42,516 nucleotides of DNA from Planctomycetota bacterium (GTDB lineage: Bacteria > Planctomycetota > PLA2), in NCBI GenBank assembly GCA_021776735.1, contig JAJFFH010000008.1:68490-111005 (forward strand). The letters run 5' to 3'. Made by a program: the position numbers and the translations under genes. The notes below the pieces were generated by a model that was given only the letters and a program-made list of their open reading frames with translations, had not been told where the DNA came from and made no database searches. Each line of letters opens with the position of its first letter. Positions within the stretch are counted from its first letter, which is position 1. Shown here in pieces: positions 1,670 through 41,552 of the stretch.

Positions 1670-1682
1670 ACGGACGGCGATA
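1670..1682 (+). repeat. Motif M1 copy 1 (ACGGACGGCGATA)
   Basis: Intergenic, just downstream of the deaminase stop. The 12-base core is exact; the last base is A instead of G. Confidence 0.8.
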
Positions 1683-1790
1683 CCTACGGGCCGTTCCTTC
1701 TGCCCCCGCCCCCCCACACCCCCAAAAAGGGCAGCGTCCACTCTCCTGCGGAGTTTGTTGCATGCTATAGTTCGATCAGGAGGTGAAACC

Positions 1791-2717
1791 GTGACAAACC
1801 TGATCGTCGGAATCCACGGTCTGGCCAACAAACCGGACAAGGACGTGCTCGCCAGGTGGTGGCGGGACTCCATCGCCGAGGGCCTCGATCGCAACGAAAG
1901 CATCGATAGCCCCTCATTCGACTTTGAGATGGTGTACTGGGCGGACCAGCTCTACCGCTATCCGCTGCACCAGGACGAGGCGTACAACTTCGACAAGCTG
2001 TACAACGGCGAGCCCTACCGCGAGGCCGGGCCGGGCGAATTGACGGAGTATCGCGAGGGGTTTTTGGACTCCGTACGGGCGAAGGTGCAGGACTGGGGCG
2101 GGTCAATCGTCGACTATGCGCATCGCAAGTTCGGCATGGAGTCCGTCGGAAGCTGGTTGCTTGGAAAGCTCCTGAAGGACCTCGCGTTCTACTACGACGA
2201 GGAGCGCAAGATCGGCGACCCGCCGCGACTGGCGCGCACGGTGCTCGACGAGACCCTTGAGAAGGAGCTGGTGCCGCACGCGGGCAAAAAGATCATGGTG
2301 ATCGCCCACTCGATGGGTTCGATCATCGCCTACAACGTCCTGCGCGACCTCGGGCAAAAACACGGAAACGTCCACGTTGCCGACTTCGTAACCATCGGCT
2401 CGCCGCTGGGACTGCCTTACGTGAAGGCGCAGATCGTGCGGGAGCGCGGCTACGACCCGCGGGTGCGCACGCCGACTTGCGTCAAGGACCAGTGGGTCAA
2501 TTACGCGGACAAAAAGGATCCGGTGGCGCTCGACATCCGGCTGCGCGACGACTACACCGCAAACGCAAGCGACGTGCGCGTGACGGACGATCTCGTCTCG
2601 AACACGTACTGGACCCCGGGCAAGGGCAACAAGCACGACGAGAACCACCACAAGTCGTACGGCTACCTCCGCACGCCGGAGGTGTCGCGCCACATCCGGG
2701 CGTTTCTCGGTCTCTGA
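1791..2717 (+). CDS. Alpha/beta hydrolase (lipase/esterase-like)
   Basis: About 308 residues. It opens with LIVGIHGLANKPD, an oxyanion-hole HG motif, and has the nucleophile elbow AHSMGS near the centre, followed by FVTIGSPLGLP, a typical lipase strand. An acidic and His-rich tail (DENHHKSYGYL) holds the probable catalytic His. No signal peptide is seen, so it is probably cytoplasmic. I chose the GTG at 1791 because a strong AGGAGGTG ribosome site lies just upstream; an in-frame ATG at 1755 has none. The substrate is unknown. The gene stands alone, convergent with the acetyltransferase at 2723. Confidence 0.8.
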   Translation: MTNLIVGIHGLANKPDKDVLARWWRDSIAEGLDRNESIDSPSFDFEMVYWADQLYRYPLHQDEAYNFDKLYNGEPYREAGPGELTEYREGFLDSVRAKVQDWGGSIVDYAHRKFGMESVGSWLLGKLLKDLAFYYDEERKIGDPPRLARTVLDETLEKELVPHAGKKIMVIAHSMGSIIAYNVLRDLGQKHGNVHVADFVTIGSPLGLPYVKAQIVRERGYDPRVRTPTCVKDQWVNYADKKDPVALDIRLRDDYTANASDVRVTDDLVSNTYWTPGKGNKHDENHHKSYGYLRTPEVSRHIRAFLGL

Positions 2718-2722
2718 CGCGG

Positions 2723-3235
2723 CTAGACAGTCCCGTAGAACGCGCCGTGGAAAGTGAATTGACCCCGCGGCTGTTCGTGTCCAAGCGGCTTCACCATGAA
2801 GAACTCCGCGGGCTCGGCGGCGGGTGCATGCGACGGCGATTGCACGAATCCGAAGCGCGTGTAGTAGCCCGGGTCGCCCACCAGGATGCAGCCGTGGGCG
2901 CCCAACTCGGTGATGCGCTTGAGTCCGGCGCGAATCAGCCTTGAGCCGATGCCGACGCCCTGGTGGTCGGGAAGAACGGCCACGGGGCCGAGTCCATACC
3001 ATCCCGGCGCGCCCCCCGACTCTTGTGCGGGCGAAAACGCCACCTGACCGACCACGGCGCCCTGCAGTTCGGCAACCAGCGAGACCGACAGGGCGTTGGC
3101 GCGCCGAAGCTTCTCGACCAATTCGGCTTCATCGCCGTCGGCGTACGGCTTCCCGGCAAACGCCGCGCTGATCACGTTGCCGATGGCTACGTGGTCCTCG
3201 TCGCGCTCGGGGCGAATGATCGGATCCGGTGACAT
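2723..3235 (-). CDS. GNAT family N-acetyltransferase (YhbS-like)
   Basis: 170 residues. IIRPERDEDHVAIGNVISAAF is the N-terminal strand/helix of a GNAT fold. YGLGPVAVLPDHQGVGIGSRLI contains the acetyl-CoA loop (Q-G-x-G-x-G), and the C-terminal block GDPGYYTRFGFV is the YhbS-type acceptor region. It probably transfers an acetyl group to a small molecule or protein; the substrate is unknown. Its start lies 11 bases after the histidine kinase stop, on the same strand, so it is likely the third gene of the two-component operon. Confidence 0.85.
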   Translation of the reverse strand: MSPDPIIRPERDEDHVAIGNVISAAFAGKPYADGDEAELVEKLRRANALSVSLVAELQGAVVGQVAFSPAQESGGAPGWYGLGPVAVLPDHQGVGIGSRLIRAGLKRITELGAHGCILVGDPGYYTRFGFVQSPSHAPAAEPAEFFMVKPLGHEQPRGQFTFHGAFYGTV

Positions 3236-3246
3236 CTGCGACTGTC

Positions 3247-4926
3247 CTACTTCCTCGATTCAGGGTCTGTTGCGTTCGCCGGGCCTGTGAACTCGACCTC
3301 AAGGCCGCCCTCGGCGGCACGGGAAAACGACAGCTCGAAGCCGTGGCGGGCGGCGACCTCTCGCGCGATCGACAGGCCGAAGCCCTGTCCGGCGGGCTGG
3401 CGCGTGCGGGCCTTTTCTCCGCGGAAGCGTCGCTCGCCCAGTCGCGGCAACTCATCTTCGGGCACACCGGGTCCGTCGTCGATTACGCGCAGCCAGAAGT
3501 CTCCGGAGTGCGCACCGGCGGCAGCGGCGCCTCGCTCGTCACGATCGTCGCTGCGCGTGCCGAGCAGGATGGCGACGCGGCCGCCTTCGCGGTTGTAGCG
3601 CACCGCGTTGTGCACGACATTGCCGACCGCCTGTTCGAGGAGCGTAACGTCGCCGGTGACCACGACCGGATCGCCGGGCAGCGCGTACTCCAGCGCAACG
3701 CCACGCTTGTCGGCCACCGGCTTGTGGCGAGCGGCCACACGCCCCACGAGTTCGCCCAGATCGACGGGGTCGCGCCGGACCTGGGCGCCACCGGCTTCGA
3801 GCTTCGCCGCCGCGGAGAGGTTGTGCAGCAGCGACGACATGTAGTCGGCCTCGTGGCGCGCCGCGGCCACGCGATCGTCATCCGGCAGCGCTGACAGATG
3901 TCCCTGCAAGACCGTGAGCGGTGTCATGACGTCGTGCGTTGTGTTGGCCAGGAAACGCCGGAGCGTCGCCTCGCGCCGCTCGACCGCGTCGATGTGCGCC
4001 TTGACCTCCGCGCCGGCGTCGTTGAAGGCGCGCGCGAGCCGTGTGATCTCGTCTCCGCCGGTCACGGGCACCGCCACGCCGTAGCCTTGCGCGGCTGCTC
4101 CGCGCACATCGCGCTCAAGACGCCGGATGCGCTGCACGATCGGTCCCGCCGCGAGAAGCACGGCGAGCAGCAGGGCGCCACAGATCGCCGCTCCGGTCCA
4201 GATCAGATCGCCCGAACGGGTGATCGGCGTGTCCCCGGTACGGCGCGCGAGCACGACGCAGCACGGGCCTTCCCGCCAAGACATGCGCAGCCCGACCCAC
4301 ACTCCGTCGATCACCGTGTCGGCACCCGCCTCGAGTTTCTTGCGCGCGGCCTTGGGAAACTCCGGAGCGCGCGGGTTGCGCGACAGATAATCGGGTCCGT
4401 ACGCCATGAAGAGCACACGCGGCGGACCGCGACCTTCGCGAAACGCGCGCTCGCGCCAGTTGCCCGGCCCGCCGCGACCATGACCACGATGCTCGCCGGG
4501 CTCGCGCGGGCGGCGCGGCGCACCGTTCTCAAGCGGCGCGCCGGGCTCGCGCGGGTCCGCGCGGTCTGACGGTCGCGGCGGTCTTTCGTCGATGGGCTCT
4601 GTGCCCCCGCCCCCCTCATTCAAACGATTCCGCTCGGGCCGTTCCCCTTCACCGTCGGGCGCACCGCGATCATCCCCGCGCGGACGCCGGGTCCCGCCCG
4701 GGCGACCCGGACCACGTCGGCCCCAGCGGCGGCGCGGAAACGGAAAGTTCTCGGGGTACGCCTCGCACGCCTCGCGGCCGTTTTGATACATGCGCTCGAG
4801 GACGATGCCGCGCACGAACTCGATGTAGGCGCGCTCGTCGAGATCTCGACGCACCCAAACCACGCCGGCGACGACCGGAATCGCGGTCAGCCCGAGTGCG
4901 AGGGAAAGACGCAGCCGCAGACTCAC
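3247..4926 (-). CDS. Membrane sensor histidine kinase
   Basis: 559 residues starting at GTG (4924-4926), which overlaps the TGA of the response regulator, so the two are translationally coupled. TM1 is at about residues 8-25 and TM2 at about 243-264. A HAMP-like linker follows, then the H-box FLANTTHDVMTPL (phospho-acceptor His331), N-box VVHNAVRYN (Asn440), G1 DDGPGVP and G2 GQGFGLSI. The periplasmic part is odd: about residues 64-170 are an Arg/Pro/Gly-rich low-complexity insert with no recognisable sensor fold. The signal sensed is unknown. It should phosphorylate the OmpR-type regulator upstream. Confidence 0.93.
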   Translation of the reverse strand: MSLRLRLSLALGLTAIPVVAGVVWVRRDLDERAYIEFVRGIVLERMYQNGREACEAYPENFPFPRRRWGRRGPGRPGGTRRPRGDDRGAPDGEGERPERNRLNEGGGGTEPIDERPPRPSDRADPREPGAPLENGAPRRPREPGEHRGHGRGGPGNWRERAFREGRGPPRVLFMAYGPDYLSRNPRAPEFPKAARKKLEAGADTVIDGVWVGLRMSWREGPCCVVLARRTGDTPITRSGDLIWTGAAICGALLLAVLLAAGPIVQRIRRLERDVRGAAAQGYGVAVPVTGGDEITRLARAFNDAGAEVKAHIDAVERREATLRRFLANTTHDVMTPLTVLQGHLSALPDDDRVAAARHEADYMSSLLHNLSAAAKLEAGGAQVRRDPVDLGELVGRVAARHKPVADKRGVALEYALPGDPVVVTGDVTLLEQAVGNVVHNAVRYNREGGRVAILLGTRSDDRDERGAAAAGAHSGDFWLRVIDDGPGVPEDELPRLGERRFRGEKARTRQPAGQGFGLSIAREVAARHGFELSFSRAAEGGLEVEFTGPANATDPESRK

Positions 4927-5594: not shown

Positions 5595-5638
5595 AGCGTG
5601 CCCCTCAAATCTTAAGAAGTTCCTAGGATGAGAACACC

Positions 5639-6202: not shown

Positions 6203-6255
6203 AAATCTCCGACGGTTCAGAATCGCTTAAGAGCGGGCGTGTTCTAAGGGGTGTT

Positions 6256-8040
6256 ATGAGAACAACCCTCCTTCTCACGCTGCTCGTTTGGGCGGCTCAA
6301 GCCCAAGACAGTAACCCTCCCGGCTCGGGCGGCCCGCGCGGCCCCGGAGCGCCCGGCGGACGCCGCGGCTTCGACCGCGGACGCATCGCCGGCATGATCC
6401 TCGCCCGCGCGGCGGACGCCGACAAGAGCGGCGACGTGACCGCGGCCGAATGGAAGCAATTCGTCGCCTCGCTGCAAGCCGGCGAGGACGGCGCGATCGA
6501 TCCCAAGTCCCTGGCCGACGCGCTGCCCATGCGGCGTCGCGGCGGGCGCGGCGGCCGGGGTGGCCCGGGCGGCCAAGAGGGTCGCGGGGACAACAGCGAC
6601 CGGTTGGTGCGGCTGTTCGACAAGGATGGCGACGGCAAACTCAAGGTCGCCGAGTTGGACGAAGCGTACGCCGGGCTCGACAAGGACGGCGACAAGGCCA
6701 TCTCCAAAGAGGAGATGCCGCAAGGGTTTGGTCGAGGGGGGCGCGGGGGCCGAGGTACTCGCCGCGGACCCGCCGGCGCAATCGTGCGCCTCGCCGACAA
6801 GGACAAGAACGGCGAGGTCACCGCCGAAGAGTGGCGGGCGTTCGTTGCGTCGGTTTCAAACGCCGACGGCACCATCGATGTCGCCAAGCTCTTCGCCGCG
6901 ATGCCCAAGCCCGACGGGCCCCGGCGCGGCCCGCCTCCCGGTCGTGAAGGTCCCGGCGGCGATGGTCCCGGTGGCCCGGGCGCGCCCGGTGGTCCGGAAG
7001 GACGCGGCGGCAAGGGTCCCGGAGGCGCGCAGCAGGGTCGCAACCCCGCGCGACGATTCGGCCGCATGCTCGACAAGAACCGCGACGGCAGCGTGCAGGC
7101 CGCCGAGCTCGATGCGCTGTTCGCCGGACTCGATGCCAACAAGGACAAGAAGCTCGACAAGAGCGAGTTGGACAAGGCCGGTGCGCGGCCCGCGCGCGGC
7201 GCGCGAAAGGGCCCCAAGAAGAAGGCCAAAGACACGGACCACGGCAAGGACGACGAGGCAGGAACGGACGGCGATACGTCGAAGGATCGCGGCGCCACGA
7301 TGCGCGCGGACCCGCGCGACGAAGCCGGCGTCGCCGAATTCGTGCGAGCGCTCGTACTGAAAGAGATCGCGGAAGACGACGCCGAGGAATCGCCCGAAGA
7401 AGACATTGAAGAAGAAGAGGAGACCCGACTCGAACGCCGCGGCCCGCCTCAGAAGCGGCGCGGCAACGGACAACAGGGACCGCCCCGGATGCGACACGGC
7501 AACGGACAGCAGGGACCGCCCTGGATGCGACGCGGCAACGGACAGCGGGGATCGCCCCGGATGCAGCGCCGCAACGGACAGCAGGGACCGCCCCGGATGC
7601 AGCGTGGCAACGGTCAACAGGGCCCGCCCTGGATGCAGCGCCGACACCGCCAGCGGGGCTCGTTCCGGATGCACCGTGGTCGCCGGCAGGCTCAGGGACA
7701 GCGCGGTCAACGTGGCCGTCAGGGCCACCAACGCAGGCAACACGGAAACGCCGGCAAGGACGGCCCCGGAATCCCCGAGTACGTCCGCAGCATGTTGCGC
7801 GAGGAGATCCGCCGGATCGTGCGCGAGGAGATTCGGCGCGCAGCGCGTGGCATGAAGCACCAGCGTCGCGAGGGCGCGGAAGGCGCGCGCATGCGGCGCC
7901 GCCACGTCGATCGCCGACGGCCCCGGCACGACAACCAACCCGGCCACGACAAGGCCCCCCGCAACGACAGAGAAACCCGTCGAGACAGAGAGACCCGTAG
8001 CGACAAGAAAACCGACAGCGACAAGGGAGACAACCGATGA
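6256..8040 (+). CDS. Secreted multi-EF-hand calcium-binding protein
   Basis: 594 residues from the ATG at 6256, which follows AAGGGG; longer frames lack a site. The first 17 residues form a signal peptide ending AQAQ. At least six EF-hand loops are visible (DADKSGDVTAAE, DKDGDGKLKVAE, DKDGDKAISKEE, DKDKNGEVTAEE, DKNRDGSVQAAE, DANKDKKLDKSE), plus two degenerate ones (EDGAID, NADGTID), separated by Gly/Pro/Arg linkers. After an acidic linker comes a 12-residue repeat (NGQQGPPRM type) in six copies, then a short Arg/Glu helix and a very charged tail. It probably binds calcium outside the cytoplasm. Its stop overlaps the next gene's start (ATGA). Paralogous EF-hand proteins of this style are common in planctomycetes. 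Confidence 0.85.
   Translation: MRTTLLLTLLVWAAQAQDSNPPGSGGPRGPGAPGGRRGFDRGRIAGMILARAADADKSGDVTAAEWKQFVASLQAGEDGAIDPKSLADALPMRRRGGRGGRGGPGGQEGRGDNSDRLVRLFDKDGDGKLKVAELDEAYAGLDKDGDKAISKEEMPQGFGRGGRGGRGTRRGPAGAIVRLADKDKNGEVTAEEWRAFVASVSNADGTIDVAKLFAAMPKPDGPRRGPPPGREGPGGDGPGGPGAPGGPEGRGGKGPGGAQQGRNPARRFGRMLDKNRDGSVQAAELDALFAGLDANKDKKLDKSELDKAGARPARGARKGPKKKAKDTDHGKDDEAGTDGDTSKDRGATMRADPRDEAGVAEFVRALVLKEIAEDDAEESPEEDIEEEEETRLERRGPPQKRRGNGQQGPPRMRHGNGQQGPPWMRRGNGQRGSPRMQRRNGQQGPPRMQRGNGQQGPPWMQRRHRQRGSFRMHRGRRQAQGQRGQRGRQGHQRRQHGNAGKDGPGIPEYVRSMLREEIRRIVREEIRRAARGMKHQRREGAEGARMRRRHVDRRRPRHDNQPGHDKAPRNDRETRRDRETRSDKKTDSDKGDNR
7264..7276 (+). repeat. Motif M1 copy 2 (ACGGACGGCGATA)
   Basis: Inside the EF-hand gene, in the linker after the last EF loop, where it encodes TDGDT. 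Preceded by CAGGA. Confidence 0.8.
7465..7680 (+). repeat. Six tandem 36-base units inside the EF-hand gene
   Basis: Units start at 7465, 7501, 7537, 7573, 7609 and 7645. Each encodes 12 residues of the NGQQGPPRM(R/Q) type. Units 1-5 are close copies and the sixth has drifted. Being in frame, copy-number change would lengthen or shorten the protein without frameshift. Confidence 0.9.
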
Positions 8041-8360: not shown

Positions 8361-8410
8361 TCGACCAAACCGAACCCGAGAACGCGGAGAGCAACTCGCT
8401 CTTTCGTTCA

Positions 8411-8437
8411 GAGGGCCCGCACCAGTTGCGGGCCCTC
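8411..8437 (+). terminator. Hairpin terminator after the EF-hand operon
   Basis: Perfect 11-base-pair stem GAGGGCCCGCA / TGCGGGCCCTC with a five-base loop, 50 bases after the stop at 8360. The 3' T-run is weak (GCTTGT). Confidence 0.75.
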
Positions 8438-8495
8438 GCTTGTACCTGACGTTTGCCCGCGCCCGGGTGGCCCACGCGGACAATCTCCCGCGCGG

Positions 8496-8523: not shown

Positions 8524-8529
8524 GGGAGC

Positions 8530-8823: not shown

Positions 8824-8833
8824 GGAGTACGCC

Positions 8834-9904: not shown

Positions 9905-9917
9905 CATCGCCGTCCGT
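9905..9917 (-). repeat. Motif M1 copy 3
   Basis: Exact ACGGACGGCGATG on the minus strand, preceded by GAGCGT, in the gap 16 bases downstream of the nrtR stop. Confidence 0.85.
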
Positions 9918-10592: not shown

Positions 10593-12199
10593 CAGACGTA
10601 CGGCGCTCCGCCCAGGAACCGCTCGACGATCGGGAACCGGCGCCCGCCGAGGCCGAACGCCTTGCCGGTCACCTTGAGCACCGGTGCGGCCTGCTGACGC
10701 TTGTATTCCTGGAGCGAGACGGCCCGCACGATCCGGCCGACCACCGCCTCGTCGAACCCGCGCGCACAGATCTCGCGCGGCCGCAGGCGCTCTTCCAGAT
10801 GCAAGCGCAGGATCTCGTCGAGCACCTCGTACGGCGGCAGCGAATCCTGGTCCGTCTGGTCCGGCCGCAACTCCGCGGACGGCGGCCGCGTGAGCACGCG
10901 CTCCGGAATCGCCGGATAGCGTCGCGCCAGCTCGTACACCTGCCCCTTGTACAGATCGCTGATCGGCGCCAGCGCCCCCACCATGTCGCCGTACAGCGTG
11001 CAATATCCCATCGCGAATTCACTCTTGTTGGACGGCACCAGGACGAGCGACCCGGTCTTGTTTGCAAACGCCATCAGCACGAGCCCGCGAAGCCGCGCTT
11101 GCAGGTTTTCCTCGGCGAGCCCAAACGTCCGGTCGCCCCAGAGCGCCGGGAGCCCGCCAGCTAATCGTTCGTAGGACTCCGTGATCGCAAACGAATGAAA
11201 CGCAACCCCGAGCCCATCCGCCAGCGCCGCCGCGTCCTCTTCACTCATGTCCGCGCTGAACGGCCCGGGCATCGCGATTCCGGTGACGTGGGCGGCACCG
11301 AGCGCGTCCACCGCAAGGCAGGCCACAAGCGACGAATCGACGCCGCCCGACAGGCCGATCACCGCGCGCTCGAATCCGGTTTTTGAAAAGTAGTCCCGGA
11401 TGCCGAGCACCAGGGCGTCCCGGACCTCGTCCTCGTCTCCCGTTTCCAACTCGGGCGGGTCAAGCTCTTGAGTAAAGTCAAGGACGGCGATGTCTTCGAC
11501 AAACGACTTGAGCTGAGTACATCGCCGTCCGTTTGCTTTGGTCGCGAAGGATCCTCCATCAAATACCAACTGATCGTTCGCCCCGACGAGATTGCACAGA
11601 ACCATGTTCACGCCGTTCTCGGCCGCGTGGGCGCGCACGAGTTCGCGGCGGCGCGCGGGCTTGCCGCGGGCGTACGGCGACGCGGAGATGTTGACGATGA
11701 TCTCGGCGCCCTGTTTGCAAAGATCGGCAACGGGATCGGAGCGATAGAGCGCGCCGTCCCAGATGTCTTCACAGACGGTGATGCCGACCGACACGCCGTC
11801 GATCATGACGGGGGCGCCGACCGGGCCCGGCTGGAAGTAGCGGTGCTCATCGAAGACGTCGTAGGTGGGCAAGAGGCGCTTGGCGACCGGAACGACATTG
11901 CCGTCGCGAATGAGCACGGCGGCGTTGTGGAGCGGTTTGCCGGGTGAAGGCGCGCGGACCGGGGAGCCGACGAGCAGCGGCGGCAGCGAGGCGTCGCCGG
12001 CCAAGGCCCAGAGCGAGCGTTCGCAGGCGTCGAGAAACGACGGTTCTTCGAGGAGGTCGCGCGGCATGTAGCCGCAGACGGTCAGCTCCGGGAAGACCAC
12101 GACGGACGCCTCGACTCCGCGCGCGGCCTCCCGGATGCGTTCGAGGTTGCCCGGAAAGTCCCCGACCGTGGTGTTGATCTGCGCCAATGCGATCCGCAT
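10592..12199 (-). CDS. nadE: Glutamine-dependent NAD+ synthetase
   Basis: 535 residues, two domains. The N-terminal nitrilase-type glutaminase (about 1-260) has MRIALAQINTTVGDF and the catalytic Glu (FPELTVCGY), Lys (VAKRLLPTYDVFDE) and Cys (GITVCEDIWD). The C-terminal ATP-pyrophosphatase synthetase (about 265-535) has GLSGGVDSSLVA and NKSEFAMGYCTLYGDMVG. It amidates nicotinate adenine dinucleotide to NAD with glutamine. The ATG at 12199 fits the family's exact start. The gene overlaps nrtR by one base. Two M1-type sequences lie between the domains: an exact one encoding ANGRRC and a one-mismatch one encoding DIAVLD. Confidence 0.96.
   Translation of the reverse strand: MRIALAQINTTVGDFPGNLERIREAARGVEASVVVFPELTVCGYMPRDLLEEPSFLDACERSLWALAGDASLPPLLVGSPVRAPSPGKPLHNAAVLIRDGNVVPVAKRLLPTYDVFDEHRYFQPGPVGAPVMIDGVSVGITVCEDIWDGALYRSDPVADLCKQGAEIIVNISASPYARGKPARRRELVRAHAAENGVNMVLCNLVGANDQLVFDGGSFATKANGRRCTQLKSFVEDIAVLDFTQELDPPELETGDEDEVRDALVLGIRDYFSKTGFERAVIGLSGGVDSSLVACLAVDALGAAHVTGIAMPGPFSADMSEEDAAALADGLGVAFHSFAITESYERLAGGLPALWGDRTFGLAEENLQARLRGLVLMAFANKTGSLVLVPSNKSEFAMGYCTLYGDMVGALAPISDLYKGQVYELARRYPAIPERVLTRPPSAELRPDQTDQDSLPPYEVLDEILRLHLEERLRPREICARGFDEAVVGRIVRAVSLQEYKRQQAAPVLKVTGKAFGLGGRRFPIVERFLGGAPYV
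11520..11532 (-). repeat. Motif M1 copy 4
   Basis: Exact, in the sense strand of nadE, preceded by AGCAA and encoding NGRRC in the interdomain segment. A one-mismatch copy (AAGGACGGCGATG) in the opposite orientation lies 28 bases away at 11480-11492. Confidence 0.85.
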
Positions 12200-13167: not shown

Positions 13168-13242
13168 CATCCCGGACGTGTGGGTCAACGGGGGGGCGGG
13201 GGCCGCGCTCCGCCGTGCCGGGACTGCGTCGCGCGCGGACGC

Positions 13243-14740: not shown

Positions 14741-14753
14741 ACGGACGGCGATG
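14741..14753 (+). repeat. Motif M1 copy 5
   Basis: Exact, intergenic, preceded by CAGCAA and followed by TT, 69 bases after the DUF2238 stop. Confidence 0.85.
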
Positions 14754-24497: not shown

Positions 24498-25649
24498 ATG
24501 CCGGTTCCGATAGCGGGCGAACCCGCCTACGGCCAATTCGCCTACGGCCAGAGTATCGTGACCCTCGATGTCCCCCAAGGGATATCGCTGGCCGCGCGTA
24601 CGCCGCCGTGCATGGACGCACTAGCACTCTACCGCAAGGCTGTCGCCGAGGCGGAATGGCCCGAGCGACTGCCCGCACCGGTCGCGGTGATCGTGCCCGA
24701 CGAAACACGGCCGGCCCACCGGGCCGCGGCGCTGGAAGCACTGCAGAGCATCCTCCCTTCCGACACGCTGGTGGTCGTCGGCGGCGGCCTGCACCCTTCG
24801 CGTCCCCTGAACACCCCCTGGCCGGTCACCGTTCACGATGCCGAGGCGAAAGACCTCGTGGATCTCGGAACGGCCCAGGATATCGCCGTCCGTTTGCATC
24901 CCTCCGTGGCTCGGGCGGGCACGGTGATTGTCGTCAGCGCGGTGATGCCGCACTACCTCGCCGGGTTCAGCGGTGGGCCGAAGGGCATCGTCCCCGGTGT
25001 CGCAGGCAAGGAGACGATCCTCGGTGTGCATGCAAGCGAGCCTGGAGAATCCTTTGCAAATGCAATCCGCGCCTGCGCCGCGCGCTTGCCGTGTCCGGCG
25101 TACGGACTTCAGCTGCTTGTGGGGGCCCGGGGGCCGTTCGATGCCGTGGCGGGACCGCTGCGAGTCGCGCACGACGAAGCCGTGCACCGCTACCGGGCGG
25201 CGTGCGCGCAGCCGCGGCCCGCGCCCGTGGACTGCGTGATCGCCGACGCGGGCGGCGCGCCGTTCGACGCGACGCTGTTGCAAGCGCACAAGGCGTATCA
25301 CGCGGCCGCGCAACTCGTGCGCGACGGCGGCACGCTCGTGCTCCTCGCCCGATGCGACGAAGGATACGGCCATCCGGAGTTCGAAGCGCGACTGCGGGCC
25401 GCGGATCCGATGGCCGGTCCGTTTCATCCCTACGCGCGCACGGCCAGGGTGTGGTGGGAAAAGGCGCGCCGCATCCGCACGCTCATCGTGACCGACCTCG
25501 ATGTCGCGCACCTCGGCGTCACGCGCGTCGTTCCCGACGACGTCCCCGGACTGCTGTTTCCGGCCTCCCCTCCCGGCGCCCTCCCCTCTGGCGCATCCGA
25601 TTCCAGCCTCCTCCTTGCTCCGGCAGCGCAGGAACTGTTGTTTTCATGA
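24498..25649 (+). CDS. LarA-like nickel-dependent racemase family protein (DUF2088)
   Basis: 383 residues. VIVPDETRPAHRAAALEAL is the N-terminal LarA motif (D-x-T-R-P), and MPHYLAGFSGGPKGIVPGVAGKETI is the central H-x3-G-x2-GG-x-K-x2-PG signature with the catalytic His. The C-terminal half (about 220-383) is the family's second Rossmann-like domain. LarA proteins racemise lactate or other 2-hydroxy acids with a nickel-pincer cofactor; the substrate here is unknown. M1 copy 8 encodes DIAVR near residue 130. The stop overlaps the glycosyltransferase start (ATGA). Confidence 0.82.
   Translation: MPVPIAGEPAYGQFAYGQSIVTLDVPQGISLAARTPPCMDALALYRKAVAEAEWPERLPAPVAVIVPDETRPAHRAAALEALQSILPSDTLVVVGGGLHPSRPLNTPWPVTVHDAEAKDLVDLGTAQDIAVRLHPSVARAGTVIVVSAVMPHYLAGFSGGPKGIVPGVAGKETILGVHASEPGESFANAIRACAARLPCPAYGLQLLVGARGPFDAVAGPLRVAHDEAVHRYRAACAQPRPAPVDCVIADAGGAPFDATLLQAHKAYHAAAQLVRDGGTLVLLARCDEGYGHPEFEARLRAADPMAGPFHPYARTARVWWEKARRIRTLIVTDLDVAHLGVTRVVPDDVPGLLFPASPPGALPSGASDSSLLLAPAAQELLFS
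24881..24893 (-). repeat. Motif M1 copy 8 (ACGGACGGCGATA)
   Basis: Inside the LarA-like gene on its antisense strand, preceded by TGCAA; sense reading DIAVR. Confidence 0.75.
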
Positions 25650-26776: not shown

Positions 26777-27759
26777 TGGCGAAAAAGCCCAAGACGGTCT
26801 TGTCGCTGTGCCGGGCCACGGGCGTACTGCATCTCGGCAACTACCTGGGGGCGGTGCGCGACTTCGTGGCACTGAGCGAAGACCCGAACGCGGAGTGCTA
26901 CTTCGGCATCGCCGACCTGCACGCGCTCACGTCGCTCACGGATCCCGAAAAACTGCGCCCGGCGACACGACAGGTCGCCCGCGACTACCTTGCCGCAGGC
27001 ATCGATCCGCAACAGTCCGCCCTGTTCCTGCAGTCCGACGTCAAGGAGACGAACGAACTGTTCTGGCTCCTGTGCAACGTAACGGCGACCGGCGAACTCC
27101 TGCGCTCCAAGACGTACAAGGAGATGTCGGACAAGCAGCCGGAGAACGTCAACGCCGGACTGCTCATGTACCCCGTGCTCATGGCGGCCGACATCCTGGG
27201 GCCGCAAGCGGACCTCGTGCCCGTCGGCGACGACCAGATTACGCACCTGGAAATGGCCCGCAACATCGCCAAGCGTTTCAACCACCGCTTCGGTGAGACC
27301 CTGCGCATGCCGGCGCCCTACCGCAAGAGCTCGATCCGCGTCCCCGGCCTCGACGGCAAGGGCAAGATGTCGAAGAGCGACGGCAACGGATTCGGCATCG
27401 CGGAAGAACCCGAAGCCATCTGGGAAAAACTCCGCGTCGCCTACACCGACCCCGCCCGGCAACGGCGCACGGATCCGGGCAATCCCGACCTCTGCCCCAT
27501 CGCCACGATCCACCGCTTCGTCTCGCCCAAAGACGATGTCGAAAAGATCGAGGACGGATGTCGCACGGCCGGGATCGGCTGTATCGATTGCAAAAAGATC
27601 CTGCACGGCCATTTGAGCGACCTGCTCGCCCCGGTAAGAGCCCGCAACCAAAAGCTGACGGACGGCGATGTCTCGGATGCGCTGGCGGCGGGCGCCACCA
27701 GGGTGCGCACGCGGTTTCAGGAGACGGTGGCAACCGTCCGCGAAAGGATGGGGCTATGA
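26776..27759 (+). CDS. trpS: Tryptophanyl-tRNA synthetase
   Basis: 327 residues, normal length. The class I signatures are present: TGVLHLGNYLGA (HIGH-type) and GKMSKSDGN (KMSKS), with the Trp-specific MYPVLMAADIL and LVPVGDDQITHLEMARNIAKRFN blocks. It charges tRNA-Trp. Both its ends overlap neighbours (TGATG with the glycosyltransferase, ATGA with the dioxygenase). M1 copy 9 lies in the variable C-terminal part, encoding TDGDV. The pairing with tryptophan 2,3-dioxygenase in one operon couples use and breakdown of the same amino acid. Confidence 0.96.
   Translation: MAKKPKTVLSLCRATGVLHLGNYLGAVRDFVALSEDPNAECYFGIADLHALTSLTDPEKLRPATRQVARDYLAAGIDPQQSALFLQSDVKETNELFWLLCNVTATGELLRSKTYKEMSDKQPENVNAGLLMYPVLMAADILGPQADLVPVGDDQITHLEMARNIAKRFNHRFGETLRMPAPYRKSSIRVPGLDGKGKMSKSDGNGFGIAEEPEAIWEKLRVAYTDPARQRRTDPGNPDLCPIATIHRFVSPKDDVEKIEDGCRTAGIGCIDCKKILHGHLSDLLAPVRARNQKLTDGDVSDALAAGATRVRTRFQETVATVRERMGL
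27658..27670 (+). repeat. Motif M1 copy 9
   Basis: Exact, near the 3' end of trpS, preceded by AGCTG and followed by TCTC. Confidence 0.85.
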
Positions 27760-35119: not shown

Positions 35120-35138
35120 ACGTTTCGAATCGAGACAC

Positions 35139-35169
35139 CAGGGCGCGGTCCACCACGGACCGCGCCTTT
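35139..35169 (+). terminator. Rho-independent terminator
   Basis: Ten-base-pair stem GGCGCGGTCC / GGACCGCGCC with loop ACCAC, followed by six T, 19 bases after the export lipoprotein stop. Confidence 0.92.
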
Positions 35170-35195
35170 TTTCGTCGTGCAATGTCGATGGGTAA

Positions 35196-36980
35196 ATGGG
35201 TATGCCCGTCCGCAATGCCACCACCAATGCCAGACTCGCGCCGGTCGAGACCACGCAGCGCGACACCGTCCACGCCGGCGGTGTCGAAATCGACCGGACT
35301 CCCGTCACGAACGGACGCTATCTGCGCTTTGTGGAGGAGACCGGCCACCGGCCGCCGCAGTACTGGCCGAACGGCGCGTGCCCCAAGAGCCTGGTCGACC
35401 ACCCGGTCGTCGGCATCGACTTTTTCGACGCGGCCGCCTTCGCGCTCTGGGCGGGTGGCAGCCTCCCCACCGAACTCGACTGGTGCCGCGCCACCGGCCT
35501 CGCCGAACCGCGCGCGTACGTTTGGGGCGACGGCTTCGACGCGGCGTGCTGCAACACGATGCGCAGCGATCTGAAGGGCACGACCCAAGTCGGCGCGTAC
35601 CCCGAAGGCACGGCACCGAGCGGCGCGGTCGACATGTGCGGCAACGTCTGGGAAATGACGTGCACGGAAGCGGACGAGGAGCAGTCGATCAAGGTCAAGG
35701 GCGGCTCCTGGTACGACTTTCCTGCACACGCCAAGATCGACACCAGCTTCAGCATGCGCGCGCACAAGCCGGGCAACACCGTCGGATTCCGACTGGTGTA
35801 CGGCGGCGCCCTCGGCCTGCCGGCGTTCCTGGACACGGTACTCGTCGCGCAGTGCATCACGTTTCGAAACACCCGGACACAGCAAACGGACGGCGATGTC
35901 TCCGGCGTAGACGGCGCGACGGACTCGCTGGGAGCGTTCGGCGAGTTCGAATCGATCCTCGACGAGCTGCGCGCCGAAGCCGAACCGCTCTTGCGCGACG
36001 TCGAGCTCGAGCAGGCCGAGGAAATGGCGCGACTGCTCTCCGACGACGCCTTTTCGCTCTTCGACGCCGCGCCGGAAATCCCGCTGCCGGACGAGGACGC
36101 CGACGAAGAGGTTGCGTCGCGCAACCCCAAGGTGGCGGCGCGCGAGATCGCGTTTACGCTGTGGGCACACGGAACCGAACTCGTGTCCCGGCATCCGAAA
36201 ACGCTCTTTCTCGCCGCGTGCATCGCCGTCGGCTGCGTCGTCGGCCTCACGCTCGCCTCCCTGCGCGCCAACGGGGACAGCCACACCGACTCGCGCGGCA
36301 AGAGCCTGCACATCGCCCGGCGGCGTGGCGCCCTCAACGGAACCGGCACGTCCAAAACATCGCCGTCCGTACGCTCCGGTACGAGGGATCCTTCCAAGCG
36401 GGCCAAAGGCGCGCGGCCGAGTACGAAGCTCGACCGCGCTCTCAAGGATCTGCTGTATGGCGCCTCTGACGTGCGCGACGAAGCCGAGCGCTGGCTGGTG
36501 TGGCACGGCGACGAATCGTACGACCGCGTGCGCGCGGCGCTCAAGACCAACATCAAGGCTGACGTTCGGTCCGCGTTGCTGTATGTGCAGGCGGCGATCG
36601 AGGAGCAGCGCCCGGGCGCCGCGGGCAAGCCCGTCGTGTTGCGCGACGCGCCGCGATCGGGTCTGGTTTACTTCCTCGACCGCATGGACGACAGCGCGGC
36701 GAAGCATGTTCGCCTGCTGCGGCGCACGGGTGCGGCCGAGGGCGTGCCGGTCACGGTCGTGATCCAGGGGCGCGAGAACGCGCGGGCGATCGCGCACGAG
36801 TACGCCAAGACGCTGCTCGCCGTGCGCGTCTACCCGGACGAGGGATCGCTCATGCGCGCCCTGCGGGTGACGCGCCGGCCGGTCGTCATCGGTCTCGGCC
36901 GCACGGGGCGCAAGAAGTTCGTCCTGGTCGGCACGGTGCCCCGCAGCCACCTCGCCAAAAAGACCGCCGAGCTAAAGTAG
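35196..36980 (+). CDS. SUMF1/FGE-like protein with membrane helix and thioredoxin-like C-terminus
   Basis: 594 residues. The FGE-like domain is N-terminal (about 20-210): DRTPVTNGRYLRFVEETG, HPVVGIDFFDAAAFALWAGGSLPTELDWCRATG, GAVDMCGNVWEMTCTE, VKGGSWYDF and TVGFRLV are its canonical blocks. Then come an acidic linker (about 235-310), one transmembrane helix at about 332-356 and a basic linker. The last 150 residues (SGLVYFLDRMDDSAAKHVRLL...RALRVTRRPVVIGL) have a thioredoxin-like or VWA-like alternation of strands, without CxxC. The order is opposite to the sigma/SUMF1 fusion at 19343. Two M1 copies lie in its two linkers. Confidence 0.78.
   Translation: MGMPVRNATTNARLAPVETTQRDTVHAGGVEIDRTPVTNGRYLRFVEETGHRPPQYWPNGACPKSLVDHPVVGIDFFDAAAFALWAGGSLPTELDWCRATGLAEPRAYVWGDGFDAACCNTMRSDLKGTTQVGAYPEGTAPSGAVDMCGNVWEMTCTEADEEQSIKVKGGSWYDFPAHAKIDTSFSMRAHKPGNTVGFRLVYGGALGLPAFLDTVLVAQCITFRNTRTQQTDGDVSGVDGATDSLGAFGEFESILDELRAEAEPLLRDVELEQAEEMARLLSDDAFSLFDAAPEIPLPDEDADEEVASRNPKVAAREIAFTLWAHGTELVSRHPKTLFLAACIAVGCVVGLTLASLRANGDSHTDSRGKSLHIARRRGALNGTGTSKTSPSVRSGTRDPSKRAKGARPSTKLDRALKDLLYGASDVRDEAERWLVWHGDESYDRVRAALKTNIKADVRSALLYVQAAIEEQRPGAAGKPVVLRDAPRSGLVYFLDRMDDSAAKHVRLLRRTGAAEGVPVTVVIQGRENARAIAHEYAKTLLAVRVYPDEGSLMRALRVTRRPVVIGLGRTGRKKFVLVGTVPRSHLAKKTAELK
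35886..35898 (+). repeat. Motif M1 copy 10
   Basis: Exact, preceded by CAGCAA, encodes TDGDV in the linker after the FGE-like domain. Confidence 0.85.
36358..36370 (-). repeat. Motif M1 copy 11
   Basis: Exact on the minus strand, preceded by GAGCGT; the gene's sense reading is TSPSVRS in the basic linker. Confidence 0.85.
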
Positions 36981-37643
36981 GCTCATTGTCACCGCCATGG
37001 CCGCGCCGGACGCGGTGGCGAGCAGGTTGGTCCAGTCGTTGCCGCGGGAGCCCAGTTTCGGCTGCACGAACAGGCCGATCACGCTGTCGACGACGTGACC
37101 CGAAAAACCGGCGACCGCGATCATCCAGAAAGCATCGCCGTCCGTTCCTGCTGTCGCCCAGGCTGCTACGGGAACCAGACACGCCGCGATCGCGGCCGCG
37201 AGGGTGCCGACGAGACTCATGCCGCCGTCGGCGCCGGGCTCCATGCGGCGCCCGAACAGGAGGGCGCGCGGAACGCCGCCGAAACGATGTCCCAGTTCGC
37301 TCGCCGCCGTGTCCGCAAGGGCAGTCGCAAGCGCCCCGGCCGCGGCCATCATGGCCCAGGGCGCGCCCGAGATCGCGGCGACGGCGGCCACCGCGCCGTT
37401 GCCCGCGGCCTGCCACGGCGAGCGGCGGCGCGCCGTCCGGTCCGAGACGAGCGTGCCGACGATGAGCAGTGTGGCGAGCATGGCGACGCCGGCCCAGCCG
37501 AGCCCGAACGCGAGCGGGAGCGCGATGGCGGCTCCGGCGGCGGCACCCGCGGGAGTCATGGCCCGAGTCAGCGCGGCCACAATCGCGATCGCGGGCACGA
37601 CGGCCAGCGGGGCCCAGCCGTCAGCCGGGGTCACAGCAGCCAC
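36972..37643 (-). CDS. DUF92 family membrane protein (phytyl-phosphate-kinase-like, VTE6)
   Basis: 223 residues, about six transmembrane helices. Family blocks are ALTRAMTPAGAAAGAAIALPLAFGLGWAGVAMLATLLIVGTLVSD, GNGAVAAVAAI, ALADTAASELGHRFGG (the conserved D-T-x-x-S-E-x-G active-site region) and GFSGHVVDSVIGLFVQPKLG. DUF92 includes plant and cyanobacterial VTE6, which phosphorylates phytyl phosphate to phytyl diphosphate. The start is GTG 37643, inside the end of the next upstream gene (stop at 37631), so the two are coupled. M1 copy 12 lies in a loop. Confidence 0.82.
   Translation of the reverse strand: MAAVTPADGWAPLAVVPAIAIVAALTRAMTPAGAAAGAAIALPLAFGLGWAGVAMLATLLIVGTLVSDRTARRRSPWQAAGNGAVAAVAAISGAPWAMMAAAGALATALADTAASELGHRFGGVPRALLFGRRMEPGADGGMSLVGTLAAAIAACLVPVAAWATAGTDGDAFWMIAVAGFSGHVVDSVIGLFVQPKLGSRGNDWTNLLATASGAAMAVTMSLL
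37133..37145 (-). repeat. Motif M1 copy 12
   Basis: Exact, in the sense strand of the DUF92 gene, preceded by CAGGA; encodes TDGDA. Confidence 0.85.
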
Positions 37644-38284: not shown

Positions 38285-38380
38285 AGCGGGGCGGCCGCGG
38301 GGACCGGGTGTTTCTTGATCGAATCACGGGCCCGACGCGGATCCCGACCCTCCCGCCATTAGGTAGGAAGAACCGGGCCG

Positions 38381-39742
38381 ATGAGCGATGCATTCGACGA
38401 ACCCGACCGGGGCTTTCGGGCTCCGCGCATTCCCTTCCACCTCCCCTGCGTGGTGCTGGGCGCCTTGGGATACCTCGCGACGATGGGCGTGGACTGGGCC
38501 CTGTCGCGCGCGTGGGACGTCGAGTCGGCCTTCGGCTCGACCCTCGATCTCCTGCTCGCCCAGCTAGCCCAGATCCCGGTGGTCGGTCGGGCTGCGGCAG
38601 GCGCCCTCATGAACGCCCTGGGCACGGCTCCCGCGGCGGCGCTCACCTGGGGCAAGGCGTCTTTGGCCGCGTTCGCGTTCTTCGCCGTCTGGGCCTGGTT
38701 CGGCGCCGGACTCTTGAGAACCTGCGCGCTGCGCCTGACGCGCGACGAACCCTGCTCGATCAGGGAAGCTCTCTCGTTCGGCGGCAAGCACTGGACCAGC
38801 TACCTCGCAGCCCCGGTCCTGGTCGCCGGGTTTTGCGCGGTGCTCGCCGGCCTCAACATCGCCGCCGGCTTCGTGATGAGTCTGCCGTTCATCGGCTCGT
38901 CGATCCTGGCGTTGATTCTGTTCCCGCTTGTCTTGCTGTGCTCGCTGCTGCTCATCATCGCCATCGCCGGCGGACTCGTCGGCCTGCCCCTGATGTGGTG
39001 CGGCCTCACCGTGGAACTCAACGGCGCCCTCGACGGCGTCTCGCGCGCGTACTCCTACATCTTCGCGCGCCCCTTCCGGTTCCTGTTCGGCTACTTCCTC
39101 GCCTTCGTGCTGATGGGCGTCGTCGTTCTGATGGCCGGCAAGTTCGAGACCACGGTCAAGACGACCCTGAAAGCCGGCATCGTCAGCAACGACCTCGACA
39201 AGGTGGTCAGCAAGCCGCCGCCCGACGCCGATATCCTTCAGCGCCCCGCCCAGAACTCCGATCGTATCCGCCGCGAGGCCGCCGGTATCCGCGACATCCG
39301 CAACATCAAGAGCGCGTCGTGGACCGACTGGATCGGCTTTTTGTGGATGTGGCTGTGGCTCTGGATCTTCCTCCTCGGTTTCAAGGGTTACGCGATGTAC
39401 GTCTTCCTTGGCGGATCGATGTCGCTGTACCTGCAACTGCGCCACGACGTCGACGGCACCGAAGAGCGCGAGATCTACCCCCACAGCGAGGAGGAGTGGG
39501 AAGCAGGTGAACTCCCGCCGGAAGCAAAGTGGGTTGGAAGCGAAGCCGAGACAGGAACGGACGGCGATGCCTCCTCAGCGTCTTCCCCCGAACCCGATCC
39601 CGACCCCGTCGAACCCAAAAAGCCCGACGCCCCCGCCCCCCCCCAACCCAAGCCCGAATCGGACGCCCCGGACACAACGCCGAAACCGCCCGGCGACGGA
39701 GACAAACCCGACGACGGTGGCAAACCCGACGACGCCGGCTAA
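38381..39742 (+). CDS. Multi-pass membrane protein, unassigned
   Basis: 453 residues, ATG 38381. About seven hydrophobic segments: LGALGYLATMG, AALTWGKASLAAFAFFAVWAW, YLAAPVLVAGFCAVLAGL, SSILALILFPLVLLCSLLLIIAIAGGL, FLFGYFLAFVLMGVVVLM and IGFLWMWLWLWIFLLGF. A hydrophilic stretch (about 265-305) precedes the last helix. The C-terminal 70 residues are an acidic Pro/Asp/Glu tail with no structure predicted. It is not recognised; it has the look of a planctomycete DUF of the GDPD-membrane-domain or DUF4013 type, but I see no decisive motif. M1 copy 13 sits in the tail. Confidence 0.65.
   Translation: MSDAFDEPDRGFRAPRIPFHLPCVVLGALGYLATMGVDWALSRAWDVESAFGSTLDLLLAQLAQIPVVGRAAAGALMNALGTAPAAALTWGKASLAAFAFFAVWAWFGAGLLRTCALRLTRDEPCSIREALSFGGKHWTSYLAAPVLVAGFCAVLAGLNIAAGFVMSLPFIGSSILALILFPLVLLCSLLLIIAIAGGLVGLPLMWCGLTVELNGALDGVSRAYSYIFARPFRFLFGYFLAFVLMGVVVLMAGKFETTVKTTLKAGIVSNDLDKVVSKPPPDADILQRPAQNSDRIRREAAGIRDIRNIKSASWTDWIGFLWMWLWLWIFLLGFKGYAMYVFLGGSMSLYLQLRHDVDGTEEREIYPHSEEEWEAGELPPEAKWVGSEAETGTDGDASSASSPEPDPDPVEPKKPDAPAPPQPKPESDAPDTTPKPPGDGDKPDDGGKPDDAG
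39557..39569 (+). repeat. Motif M1 copy 13
   Basis: Exact, preceded by CAGGA, encodes TDGDA in the acidic tail of the membrane protein. Confidence 0.85.
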
Positions 39743-39769
39743 CACCGGAACCCAAAGGATCTGGATTCC

Positions 39770-41065
39770 GTGTACGTGGATCCCGACCGGCTGAGCAGCG
39801 CGCGCATCCGCCCGGCCCGTTCCGCGGAGGACCTGGAGCGCGCCGTCGATTTCCTCGGCACGCCGCGGGTGCGCGAGATCGCCGAGGGGCATCCCGAGGA
39901 GCGCGGCGCGGTGCGGCTGTGCGAAATCGACGGCGAGCTGATTGGCGCGCTGCTTCTCGACCCCACGCCGTTGCGCCTGCGCGGTATCGAGATCCGCTGC
40001 GCGCGCATCCTCGAAACGGGAGGCGAGGACGGACGGCGATGCTTTCGCGAGACCGGGGATCGCGAACTGTTCGTGCTCTTGCTCGAAGAGGCCCTGGGCT
40101 ACGTCTGGATCAAGCGTTATCCGATCGTGTTCGTGCACGGTGAGCTTGCGCTGTATCCCGCCCACGGCTTCGTGCCCTGTTTTTTCCACCCGCGCGCCTA
40201 CGCGCCGACCGCCGCCGCGATCAAACTCACAGCTACAGGCCGCGTCCGTCGCTTCAAGGCCGACGACGTTCGGGCTGTGCAGCAGTTGCGCTCGACCAAC
40301 CGCGACGACAAACCGCAGGTCGTCGCGATGGGCGTGCCGGCGTTCCACCACTTCTGCGTCGAAGCGCCCGACCGCTCGATCCGCGGCTACCTGAGCCTGC
40401 AAGCCAAGCCCGAATCGCGCTGGAAGCCGCCGCTGTTCTTGCCCGAGGTCGGCGTCGCCGATCGCGCCGCCGCGCGCACCGTGCTTCGCCACTGCGCCGA
40501 GGAAGCCGCAAAGCTCGGCCTCGAGGAGTTTCACTTCCCGCTCGGCCCGGGCCACCCGATTGCACGCCTGTGCCTGGAACTCGGCGGCCGATCCGAACTG
40601 CACGGCATCTCGGGCAACCCGTTTCACGACGAAGAGATGATCCACGTTGTCGATCCGTCCGAGCTCGTCAATGCGCTGGGGCCGTTCTTCGAACGCCAAC
40701 TCGCGCGTAGCTACGCGCACGAAACCGTCGCCGAGATCCCGTTCGCCACCGGCAGCGGGGCGTGGATGCTCCGCGTAGAAAGCGGTCGCGTGGTCCTCGA
40801 TCGCCTCGAACGGCGCGCCGAAGACTGCATCGAATTGCCCGACTGGAAGTTCGTGCAACTGCTCGCGGGCTACCGCAGCGTCACGGAACTCGACGCACCG
40901 CTCACCGCGGAGCAGGAAGACGTGCTGTCGATGTTGCTACCGAAGACGTGGCCCTATTCGCTTCCCGATCCCGATGTCTGGGACGACGCGGAGCCCCCCA
41001 CGCCGTACGCGCCCGCCGCGACGGAATCGGTCGCCGGCACAAGGCTCCCCTGGGCACCGCGCTGA
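39770..41065 (+). CDS. Eis-like acetyltransferase (GNAT with SCP2-like C-terminus)
   Basis: 431 residues, GTG 39770. The N-terminal part (SARIRPARSAEDLERAVDFL, VRLCEIDGELIGALLLDPTPLRLRGIEIRCARIL) is a GNAT-like fold, and a second acetyltransferase-like segment follows (RRFKADDVRAVQQLR to HGISGNPFHDEEMIHVVD). The last 120 residues (ATGSGAWMLRVESGRVVLDRL...VQLLAGYRSVTEL...VLSMLLPKTWPYSLPDPDVW) resemble the sterol-carrier-like domain of Eis/YhbS-type enzymes. The classic Q-x-x-G-x-G loop is weak, so activity is uncertain. M1 copy 14 encodes DGRRC near residue 88. It starts 27 bases after the membrane protein stop. Confidence 0.7.
   Translation: MYVDPDRLSSARIRPARSAEDLERAVDFLGTPRVREIAEGHPEERGAVRLCEIDGELIGALLLDPTPLRLRGIEIRCARILETGGEDGRRCFRETGDRELFVLLLEEALGYVWIKRYPIVFVHGELALYPAHGFVPCFFHPRAYAPTAAAIKLTATGRVRRFKADDVRAVQQLRSTNRDDKPQVVAMGVPAFHHFCVEAPDRSIRGYLSLQAKPESRWKPPLFLPEVGVADRAAARTVLRHCAEEAAKLGLEEFHFPLGPGHPIARLCLELGGRSELHGISGNPFHDEEMIHVVDPSELVNALGPFFERQLARSYAHETVAEIPFATGSGAWMLRVESGRVVLDRLERRAEDCIELPDWKFVQLLAGYRSVTELDAPLTAEQEDVLSMLLPKTWPYSLPDPDVWDDAEPPTPYAPAATESVAGTRLPWAPR
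40029..40041 (+). repeat. Motif M1 copy 14
   Basis: Exact, preceded by GCGAGG; encodes DGRRC in the Eis-like gene. Confidence 0.85.
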
Positions 41066-41084
41066 ACGGCGCCGAACCGTCGAG

Positions 41085-41123
41085 CCGTTCACGACCGACG
41101 TTCACGTAGACGTAGCGCCTGCC
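41085..41123 (-). repeat. Dispersed intergenic repeat, family R1 copy f (divergent)
   Basis: On the minus strand GGCAGGCGCTACGT, then a GTGAACG block and GTCGTGAACG; several positions differ from copies a, d and e. Confidence 0.65.
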
Positions 41124-41205
41124 AGTTTTTCCGACCCCGAACCCGACCGCGCGACGACGCCGCGCCTGCCACGCCCCACGAACCTGACTCCTCTTCTCTT
41201 CTCCT

Positions 41206-41311
41206 CTCATTCTTCGTGAGCTTCGTGTACTTCGTGGTTTTTTCCAAGTAGACGACACCGCGGTCGACCAATCGGGACGGCGGTTACGCGAACATCGCCG
41301 TCCGTTTGCTG
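41206..41311 (+). repeat. Direct repeat A (about 106 bases)
   Basis: Starts CTCATTCTTCGTG, passes GTACTTCGTGGTTTTTT and CACCGCGGTCGACCAATCG, and ends in the minus-strand M1 motif and TTGCTG. About 86% identical by eye to copy B, 240 bases away. Confidence 0.85.
41293..41305 (-). repeat. Motif M1 copy 15
   Basis: Exact, preceded by CAGCAA (minus strand), at the end of direct repeat A. Confidence 0.85.
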
Positions 41312-41324
41312 CTCTCCGGTTCAT

Positions 41325-41359
41325 TCTCCGTGGCCCTCGGTGGCCCTCCGTGTTTTTTC
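41325..41359 (+). repeat. CCTCCGTG-type repeat block
   Basis: TCTCCGTGGCCCTCGGTGGC then CCTCCGTG and a T-run, as at 9700-9737. Confidence 0.7.
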
Positions 41360-41445
41360 TTCGGGCGGTTCGCGCCGCGCCCGTTCGATCCTGCCGCGCG
41401 CGTCCCCGACAGCAGGCGCACAGTCCTTCCTACTGAAACTTCCTC

Positions 41446-41552
41446 CTCATTCTTCGTGCCCTTCGTGTACTTCATGGTTTTTTCTCGGGTAGGCCACGCC
41501 GCGGTCGAGCAATCGTGACGGCGGTCGCGCGGACATCGCCGTCCGTTTGCTG
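41446..41552 (+). repeat. Direct repeat B (about 107 bases)
   Basis: Second copy of the unit at 41206; differs at about 14 positions and by one inserted base. Confidence 0.85.
41534..41546 (-). repeat. Motif M1 copy 16
   Basis: Exact, preceded by CAGCAA (minus strand), at the end of direct repeat B. Confidence 0.85.

Follow-up and report, generated by a model that had tools for sequence, protein, structure and literature searches.

We analysed a stretch of 42,516 nucleotides from a Planctomycetota bacterium (GenBank assembly GCA_021776735.1, contig JAJFFH010000008.1, positions 68,490 to 111,005; hereafter the window), which carries many copies of a non-palindromic 12-base word, ACGGACGGCGAT. 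This word, which we call M1, is probably a DNA uptake-sequence-like signal for the recognition of self-DNA in this planctomycete, judging from its copy number, mismatch profile, placement and spacing. The window contains 16 exact sites, eight on each strand, and 20 sites if up to one mismatch is allowed, against a shuffle mean of 0.78. All 16 had been listed in a first-pass annotation of the window, with the eight minus-strand starts given one base too low, and, as stated there, 13 of the 16 extend to the 13-mer ACGGACGGCGATG. Across the whole genome (phylum Planctomycetota; 5.97 Mb in 71 contigs), we counted 1,520 exact copies, 762 forward and 758 reverse, so that the strand balance noted in the window holds genome-wide; a reversed-pattern control gave 1 and 0. 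The annotation had proposed a comparison with a Markov model, and the observed count proved to be about 100 times that expectation. In a 1.198 Mb sample (20% of the genome), which is the basis of the anatomy, placement and spacing statistics below, the exact word was counted 307 times (155 on one strand, 152 on the other) where an order-5 Markov model predicts 2.9, and the top-ranked 10- and 12-mers in a 423.5 kb sample of the same genome were likewise the M1 word.

The abundance of M1 drops steeply with departure from the core. Sites with zero, one and two mismatches number 307, 114 and 349 in the sample, which is 1,090, 11.3 and 2.1 times the composition expectation, and the one-mismatch excess falls to 6.4 times when a single variant, containing AAGG, is set aside. 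Four control words (the reversed word and three permutations) reached 0–3.6 times expectation at zero mismatches and 0.5–2.1 times at one, with no such cliff. Since the M1 consensus was built from exact cores, the consensus alone is no proof that the core is invariant; this is given by the single-mismatch counts, most of which lie near background, with a few mild excesses (a final G, for instance, 12 against 3.0). The exception is the AAGG variant, M1b (AAGGACGGCGAT), with 49 copies against 2.0 expected, which keeps the pyrimidine tail, has its AG box shifted by one base and lies within genes in 48 of 49 cases. M1b may serve coding flexibility, as has been suggested for the two dialects found in one genome in Simonsiella, according to the available part of that study (PMC3630211).

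Around the core lies a weak shared frame, spanning about 45 bp with the core included and about 30 bases outside it, which consists of purine- and A-rich positions from about −24, mostly AGCNN or CAGGA directly 5′ of the core, and GTYYYYG after it. The 5′ flank types described earlier were thereby confirmed and refined, with AGCNN as the main class (AGCAA 58, AGCGT 43) and CAGGA at 35 of the sampled sites. Both core and frame are asymmetric. M1 occurs about once per 3.9 kb, and over 118 bins of 10 kb it is spread more evenly than a Poisson distribution would have it (variance/mean 0.78); along 600 kb of one contig there is no gradient, with 18–27 sites per 100 kb. The sites in the window are given below, together with those of M1b and of M2 (GGGGGCGGGGG, 11 bp), a second dispersed G-rich word with 69 copies in the sample, an A patch upstream and a C following.

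1670..1681, plus strand: M1 core, AGCAG type, intergenic
1703..1713, minus strand: M2, opposite to the M1 core 33 bp away
4604..4614, minus strand: M2, in a gene
7264..7275, plus strand: M1 core, CAGGA type, in an EF-hand protein gene, read as TDGD
9906..9917, minus strand: M1 core, AGCGT type, intergenic
11480..11491, plus strand: M1b, in the NAD synthase gene, 41 bp from the M1 site at 11521 and inverted relative to it
11521..11532, minus strand: M1 core, AGCAA type, in the NAD synthase gene, read as NGRRC
13192..13202, plus strand: M2, intergenic
14741..14752, plus strand: M1 core, AGCAA type, intergenic
16524..16535, plus strand: M1 core, TGCGT flank, in a DUF3352/DUF2950 gene, read as TDGD
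19778..19789, minus strand: M1b, in a sigma-70/FGE-sulfatase gene, read as KDGD
21156..21167, minus strand: M1 core, CAGGA type, in the same sigma-70/FGE-sulfatase gene as the 19778 site, read as ERTAM
24882..24893, minus strand: M1 core, TGCAA flank, antisense in a lactate racemase-like gene, IAVR
27658..27669, plus strand: M1 core, AGCTG type, in a class I (W/Y) tRNA synthetase gene, TDGD
35886..35897, plus strand: M1 core, AGCAA type, in an FGE-sulfatase-domain gene, TDGD
36359..36370, minus strand: M1 core, AGCGT type, antisense in the FGE-sulfatase-domain gene of the 35886 site, TSPSV
37134..37145, minus strand: M1 core, CAGGA type, in a DUF92 membrane protein gene, TDGD
39557..39568, plus strand: M1 core, CAGGA type, in a gene without a Pfam match, TDGD
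39630..39640, minus strand: M2, opposite to the M1 core 73 bp away
40029..40040, plus strand: M1 core, CGAGG flank, in a gene without a Pfam match, DGRRC
41294..41305, minus strand: M1 core, AGCAA type, intergenic
41535..41546, minus strand: M1 core, AGCAA type, intergenic

Genes in the sample were called with a codon-usage script written for this analysis rather than with a standard gene finder, so the intergenic fractions are approximate. On these calls, 152 of the 307 M1 copies are intergenic, 149 are genic and six lie at gene edges, in DNA that is 87.3% coding and 12.7% non-coding. This makes M1 seven-fold denser in non-coding DNA (p about 2e-56 for the intergenic excess, with the six edge sites left out), and among intergenic regions its density is 1.67 per kb between convergent genes, 1.01 between tandem genes and 0.55 between divergent ones. 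Each of the six reading frames is represented among the genic copies, and TDGD is the favoured reading (79 of 149). This extends to the sample the frame independence reported for the window, where the word is read as TDGD, NGRRC or DGRRC, ERTAM, IAVR and TSPSV. An artefact of protein repeats, with TDGD as a calcium-binding motif, was ruled out by the antisense copies and the six frames. The gene quintiles in which genic copies are denser are those of low codon bias, so the word sits in places that tolerate it. The longest interval without M1, 25.8 kb, has the look of a nuo-type operon by gene lengths and order, rather than that of a foreign island. An earlier statement that many copies sit in linkers between domains was followed up for one case, NAD synthase, where the site falls in a variable loop. 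The nearest homologues of this enzyme that carry an organism name are labelled Planctomycetota or Planctomycetes, and the closest homologue found, on a 4.6-kb JGI contig, is 79% identical.

The spacing of M1 depends on orientation. Pairs closer than 200 bp comprise 16 in opposite orientation (8.0 expected) and none in the same orientation; below 1 kb there are 40 opposite and 11 same-orientation pairs, where random placement predicts 40.3 and 37.9, and below 2 kb there are 78 and 36 (79.9 and 76.1 expected). Opposite pairs are at expectation overall, with an excess only below 200 bp, and same-orientation pairs are depleted up to 1–2 kb. None of 300 random placements had as few same-orientation pairs as observed, and when strand labels were shuffled so as to keep the gene-relative preference, none of 5,000 shuffles reached the observed 40 opposite pairs (mean 24.2). 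Forty control 8-mers, pooled, gave 701 opposite and 1,023 same-orientation pairs below 500 bp. The window contains one of only four same-orientation M1 pairs below 500 bp in the whole sample, formed by the sites at 41294 and 41535, 241 bp apart. M1 therefore behaves as a directional signal, and the argument in the first-pass annotation that balanced orientations exclude polarity is not supported, because the spacing is orientation-dependent despite the overall balance.

M2 follows the same rule relative to M1, with 17 opposite pairs and one same-orientation pair below 500 bp (8.9 and 8.7 expected). Six control G-rich 8-mers had no such bias towards M1 as a group, with two leaning opposite at some distances; pairs of M2 with itself were too few for orientation statistics. 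Because M2, an unrelated word, obeys this rule against M1, deletion between direct repeats is insufficient alone to account for the same-orientation exclusion. The argument is weakened by other G-run words in the window's genome (with TC, CGC or CC spacers), which show no clear rule towards M1.

M1 is abundant only in its own genus, g1, which is represented by this one genome. A count in relatives, also proposed in the annotation, found 0–11 copies in each of 59 related genomes, which is near chance; these include four from the same family (G001 to G004), two of which, G001 and G004, constitute the genus g2. The ACGGACGGCGATG 13-mer occurs 1,202 times in the window's genome, whereas none of the 391 further genomes in a sample of the phylum has more than five copies. 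An exact 20-mer search of genome contigs, from which the window's own genome or very near ones may be omitted, returned one match, in Dyella, which we took as chance.

A de novo search of G001 yielded another word, GGGGCTCCGGGG, so that a second genus of the same family carries a word resembling a dialect. It is present 646 times in G001 (326 and 320 by strand) and 546 times in G004 (265 and 281), with controls at 24 and 22; elsewhere among the 60 genomes searched, it was found four times in the window's genome, was absent from G002 and G003, and did not exceed 22 copies in any other relative. The g2 word has unique flanks and uses six reading frames, the word and its frame are non-palindromic and asymmetric, and related forms with TCC, CGC and CC spacers occur in G001 and G004 (e.g., L183 and L185). 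Pairs of g2 words follow the orientation rule of M1, with 27 opposite and eight same-orientation pairs below 1 kb (107 words in 260 kb); the CTCC form alone gave too few pairs for such statistics. Over about 11 kb of G001 aligned to G004, six of eight G001 word-group sites are kept, or three of four for the CTCC form, and one word-group site is present in G004 only. Samples of G002 and G003 (214 and 369 kb) yielded nothing comparable. In G003, which represents a third genus, repeats around CAACATCTGACG occur mostly in clusters (L199 7085-7190 and 17562-17772; L206 9488-9883), some of them about 30 bp apart.

If M1 is an uptake signal, the word on free DNA would be bound at the cell surface by a protein, probably a minor pilin of the type IV system, and the cell would thereby favour its own kind of DNA in import and recombination. 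The uptake bias itself would have made the copies, with transformation restoring lost ones and spreading new ones, and such molecular drive through uptake and recombination fits the sharp mismatch cliff. With a reader that acts to one side only, a further copy pointing the same way would add nothing, while one pointing the other way would stay independent; each orientation would then count as a signal of its own, required roughly once every few kilobases. The window's genome has matches to ComEC, DprA, three PilM, seven secretins and 18 N_methyl pilins, and the check for ComEC and type IV pilus genes suggested earlier thus turned out positive, with DprA in addition. Thirteen pilin-like starts were picked up as receptor candidates by a text pattern (1.198 Mb sample and three loci), of which at least two are doubtful, and none was singled out; in Pasteurellaceae, a different minor pilin is predicted to be the uptake receptor in the available part of a recent paper (PMC12616744). 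A fuller scheme can be put forward tentatively, on rather less than even terms: a self-recognition code evolved in this planctomycete family, with genus dialects (M1 and GGGGCTCCGGGG), directional reading and an exclusion zone of 1–2 kb for each orientation, in which M2 would be the remnant of an older dialect replaced by M1.

Several observations weigh against an uptake function. Competence genes are not discriminating, as 24 of 26 genomes gave a ComEC match, and PilM, secretins and pilins also occur in relatives that lack a word of this kind; since word-less relatives share most of the machinery, it permits uptake but does not prove it. DprA had no match in G003 and G004, and ComEC none in G004 (77% complete), although G004 carries the g2 word; ComP_DUS (PF16732), the receptor family of Neisseria, had no match in the window's genome. 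M1 is commoner, not rarer, in genes with atypical codon use, which gives no sign of a depletion in foreign genes. Eight of 17 best-homologue pairs (described below) are gapped within five residues of the M1 site, one of them across the whole word. The g2 word, a G-run word with variable spacers, could be of another kind. Finally, M1 spacing is orientation-dependent, whereas transformation in Neisseria was unaffected by the orientation of the DNA uptake sequence (DUS) in one study, as far as its available part goes (PMC3388099). On balance, the interpretation in the annotation is supported in part: its uptake analogy gains from the counts, the strand balance, the mismatch profile, the placement, the lack of a mobile repeat, the competence genes and the g2 word, but its polarity argument is not supported.

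Other directional or iterated signals were weighed against this reading. A Chi-like polar recombination signal, which a helicase-nuclease coming from a DNA end would read in one orientation and there switch to recombination, is unlikely. Like E. coli Chi, M1 is non-palindromic and dispersed at a similar density; it is polar, another word takes its place in another genus, and a directional reader could explain why same-orientation neighbours are missing below 1–2 kb while opposite ones are independent. However, known Chi sites are 5–8 bases long, whereas M1 combines a 12-base core with about 30 bases of weak frame and has single-base variants mostly at background, and the strong preference for non-coding DNA also tells against such a signal. 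E. coli K-12 Chi, the one yardstick tested (115 sites in 450 kb), has 34 same-orientation pairs (17.2 expected) and 11 opposite pairs (12.1 expected) below 1 kb, so that Chi clusters in the orientation that M1 avoids. An architectural role, in which a nucleoid or SMC-type protein would bind M1 directionally along the whole chromosome, is no more probable: it would suit the even spacing, the orientation-dependent exclusion and the lineage specificity, but known architecture sites are far fewer, half of the M1 copies are inside genes, no gradient is seen over 600 kb, and adjacent pairs below 500 bp show no preference between convergent and divergent arrangements (14 against 12). An iterated word of the kind of cyanobacterial HIP1 and the alternate HIPs, which a methyltransferase together with mismatch repair, and not uptake, would preserve, is very improbable. 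Such words are highly iterated and lineage-specific like M1, and HIP1 words differ between lineages and replace each other, but HIPs are palindromes linked to methyltransferase sites (both from the available part of PMC4390886), whereas M1, M1b and the g2 word are non-palindromic with asymmetric frames.

We give least credence to the idea that M1 is a miniature mobile repeat or that its copies form a terminator family in transcription. The excess between convergent genes and the 15 adjacent inverted pairs below 160 bp, five of them offset by 12–25 bp and four of these intergenic, would be in line with it. Against it, half of the copies are genic and in both orientations, the flanks are unique in 114 contexts, and none of the 28 internal repeat pairs in the sample (at least 150 bp, at least 85% identity) contains M1. 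The longer conserved flanks by which the annotation would have recognised a mobile repeat were not seen; there is only the weak frame of about 45 bp, and a mobile repeat was therefore rejected. A hairpin or RNA element was rejected likewise, with no consistent base-pair covariation across the core in the 114 contexts. A phage origin was discarded as well: a 15-mer of the word occurs in 113 viral stretches, with one copy each in the 80 listed. In an alignment of 66 NAD synthase sequences, the M1 site is ungapped in 41 of the 44 homologues listed, and of 17 best-homologue pairs from relatives (31–72% identical, putative orthologues), nine are ungapped around the M1 site. One 72%-identical homologue pair, at C20:551651 of the window's genome, has a relative that is without an 11-residue stretch holding the M1 word.

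The probable uptake signal M1 shares more than one trait with the two known groups of uptake sequences, as described in the available parts of the papers cited. Like the uptake signal sequences (USS) of Pasteurellaceae, it has a short core within a longer discontinuous motif, about 1,500 core copies, close inverted pairs at gene ends and a steep mismatch profile, and USS are reported to originate by substitution (PMC1939737, PMC7811141, PMC12616744). In H. influenzae and N. gonorrhoeae, the index falls 92- and 82-fold from zero to one mismatch and 9- and 7-fold from one to two (PMC1939737), but as it is defined as (observed − expected)/expected, a different measure from ours, we claim a resemblance only. 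Unlike USS, M1 has an unrelated sequence, belongs to another phylum, occurs once per 3.9 kb instead of about once per kilobase, and excludes same-orientation neighbours over 1–2 kb. With the DUS of Neisseriaceae it has in common a word of 10–12 bases, dialects that follow phylogeny, permissive and intergenic locations, and a second form within one genome (PMC3630211). It differs from them in its unrelated word and in the lack of a ComP_DUS match, and the g2 word has no obvious sequence likeness to M1.

A 2025 paper, in its available part, names only Neisseriaceae and Pasteurellaceae, both proteobacterial families, as known for self-recognition in DNA uptake (PMC12616744). Our search found no literature on uptake sequences in planctomycetes, with most subscription papers and all bioRxiv preprints outside its reach, and within the literature searched, M1 is the first uptake-sequence-like signal that we could find outside Pseudomonadota. 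If the uptake reading is true, these planctomycete words, two dialects of one family, would be a case independent of those in Pseudomonadota; this would mean that such codes evolve repeatedly, and it would offer a comparative handle on the joint change of receptors and words. It would also point to gene exchange by transformation in bacteria for which the searched literature holds no such study. The orientation rule can be measured, and genomes with known uptake sequences would allow an immediate check of it.

The window's genome also contains other repeats. Arrays with an offset of about 100–110 bp, free of M1, lie at C20 83542, 504182, 519806 and 531666 and at C42 137125, and some of them are related to one another. 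Tandem arrays of the hexamer GGGTTC were found at C20 ~378, C42 ~113 and C11 ~103048, two of them near contig starts.

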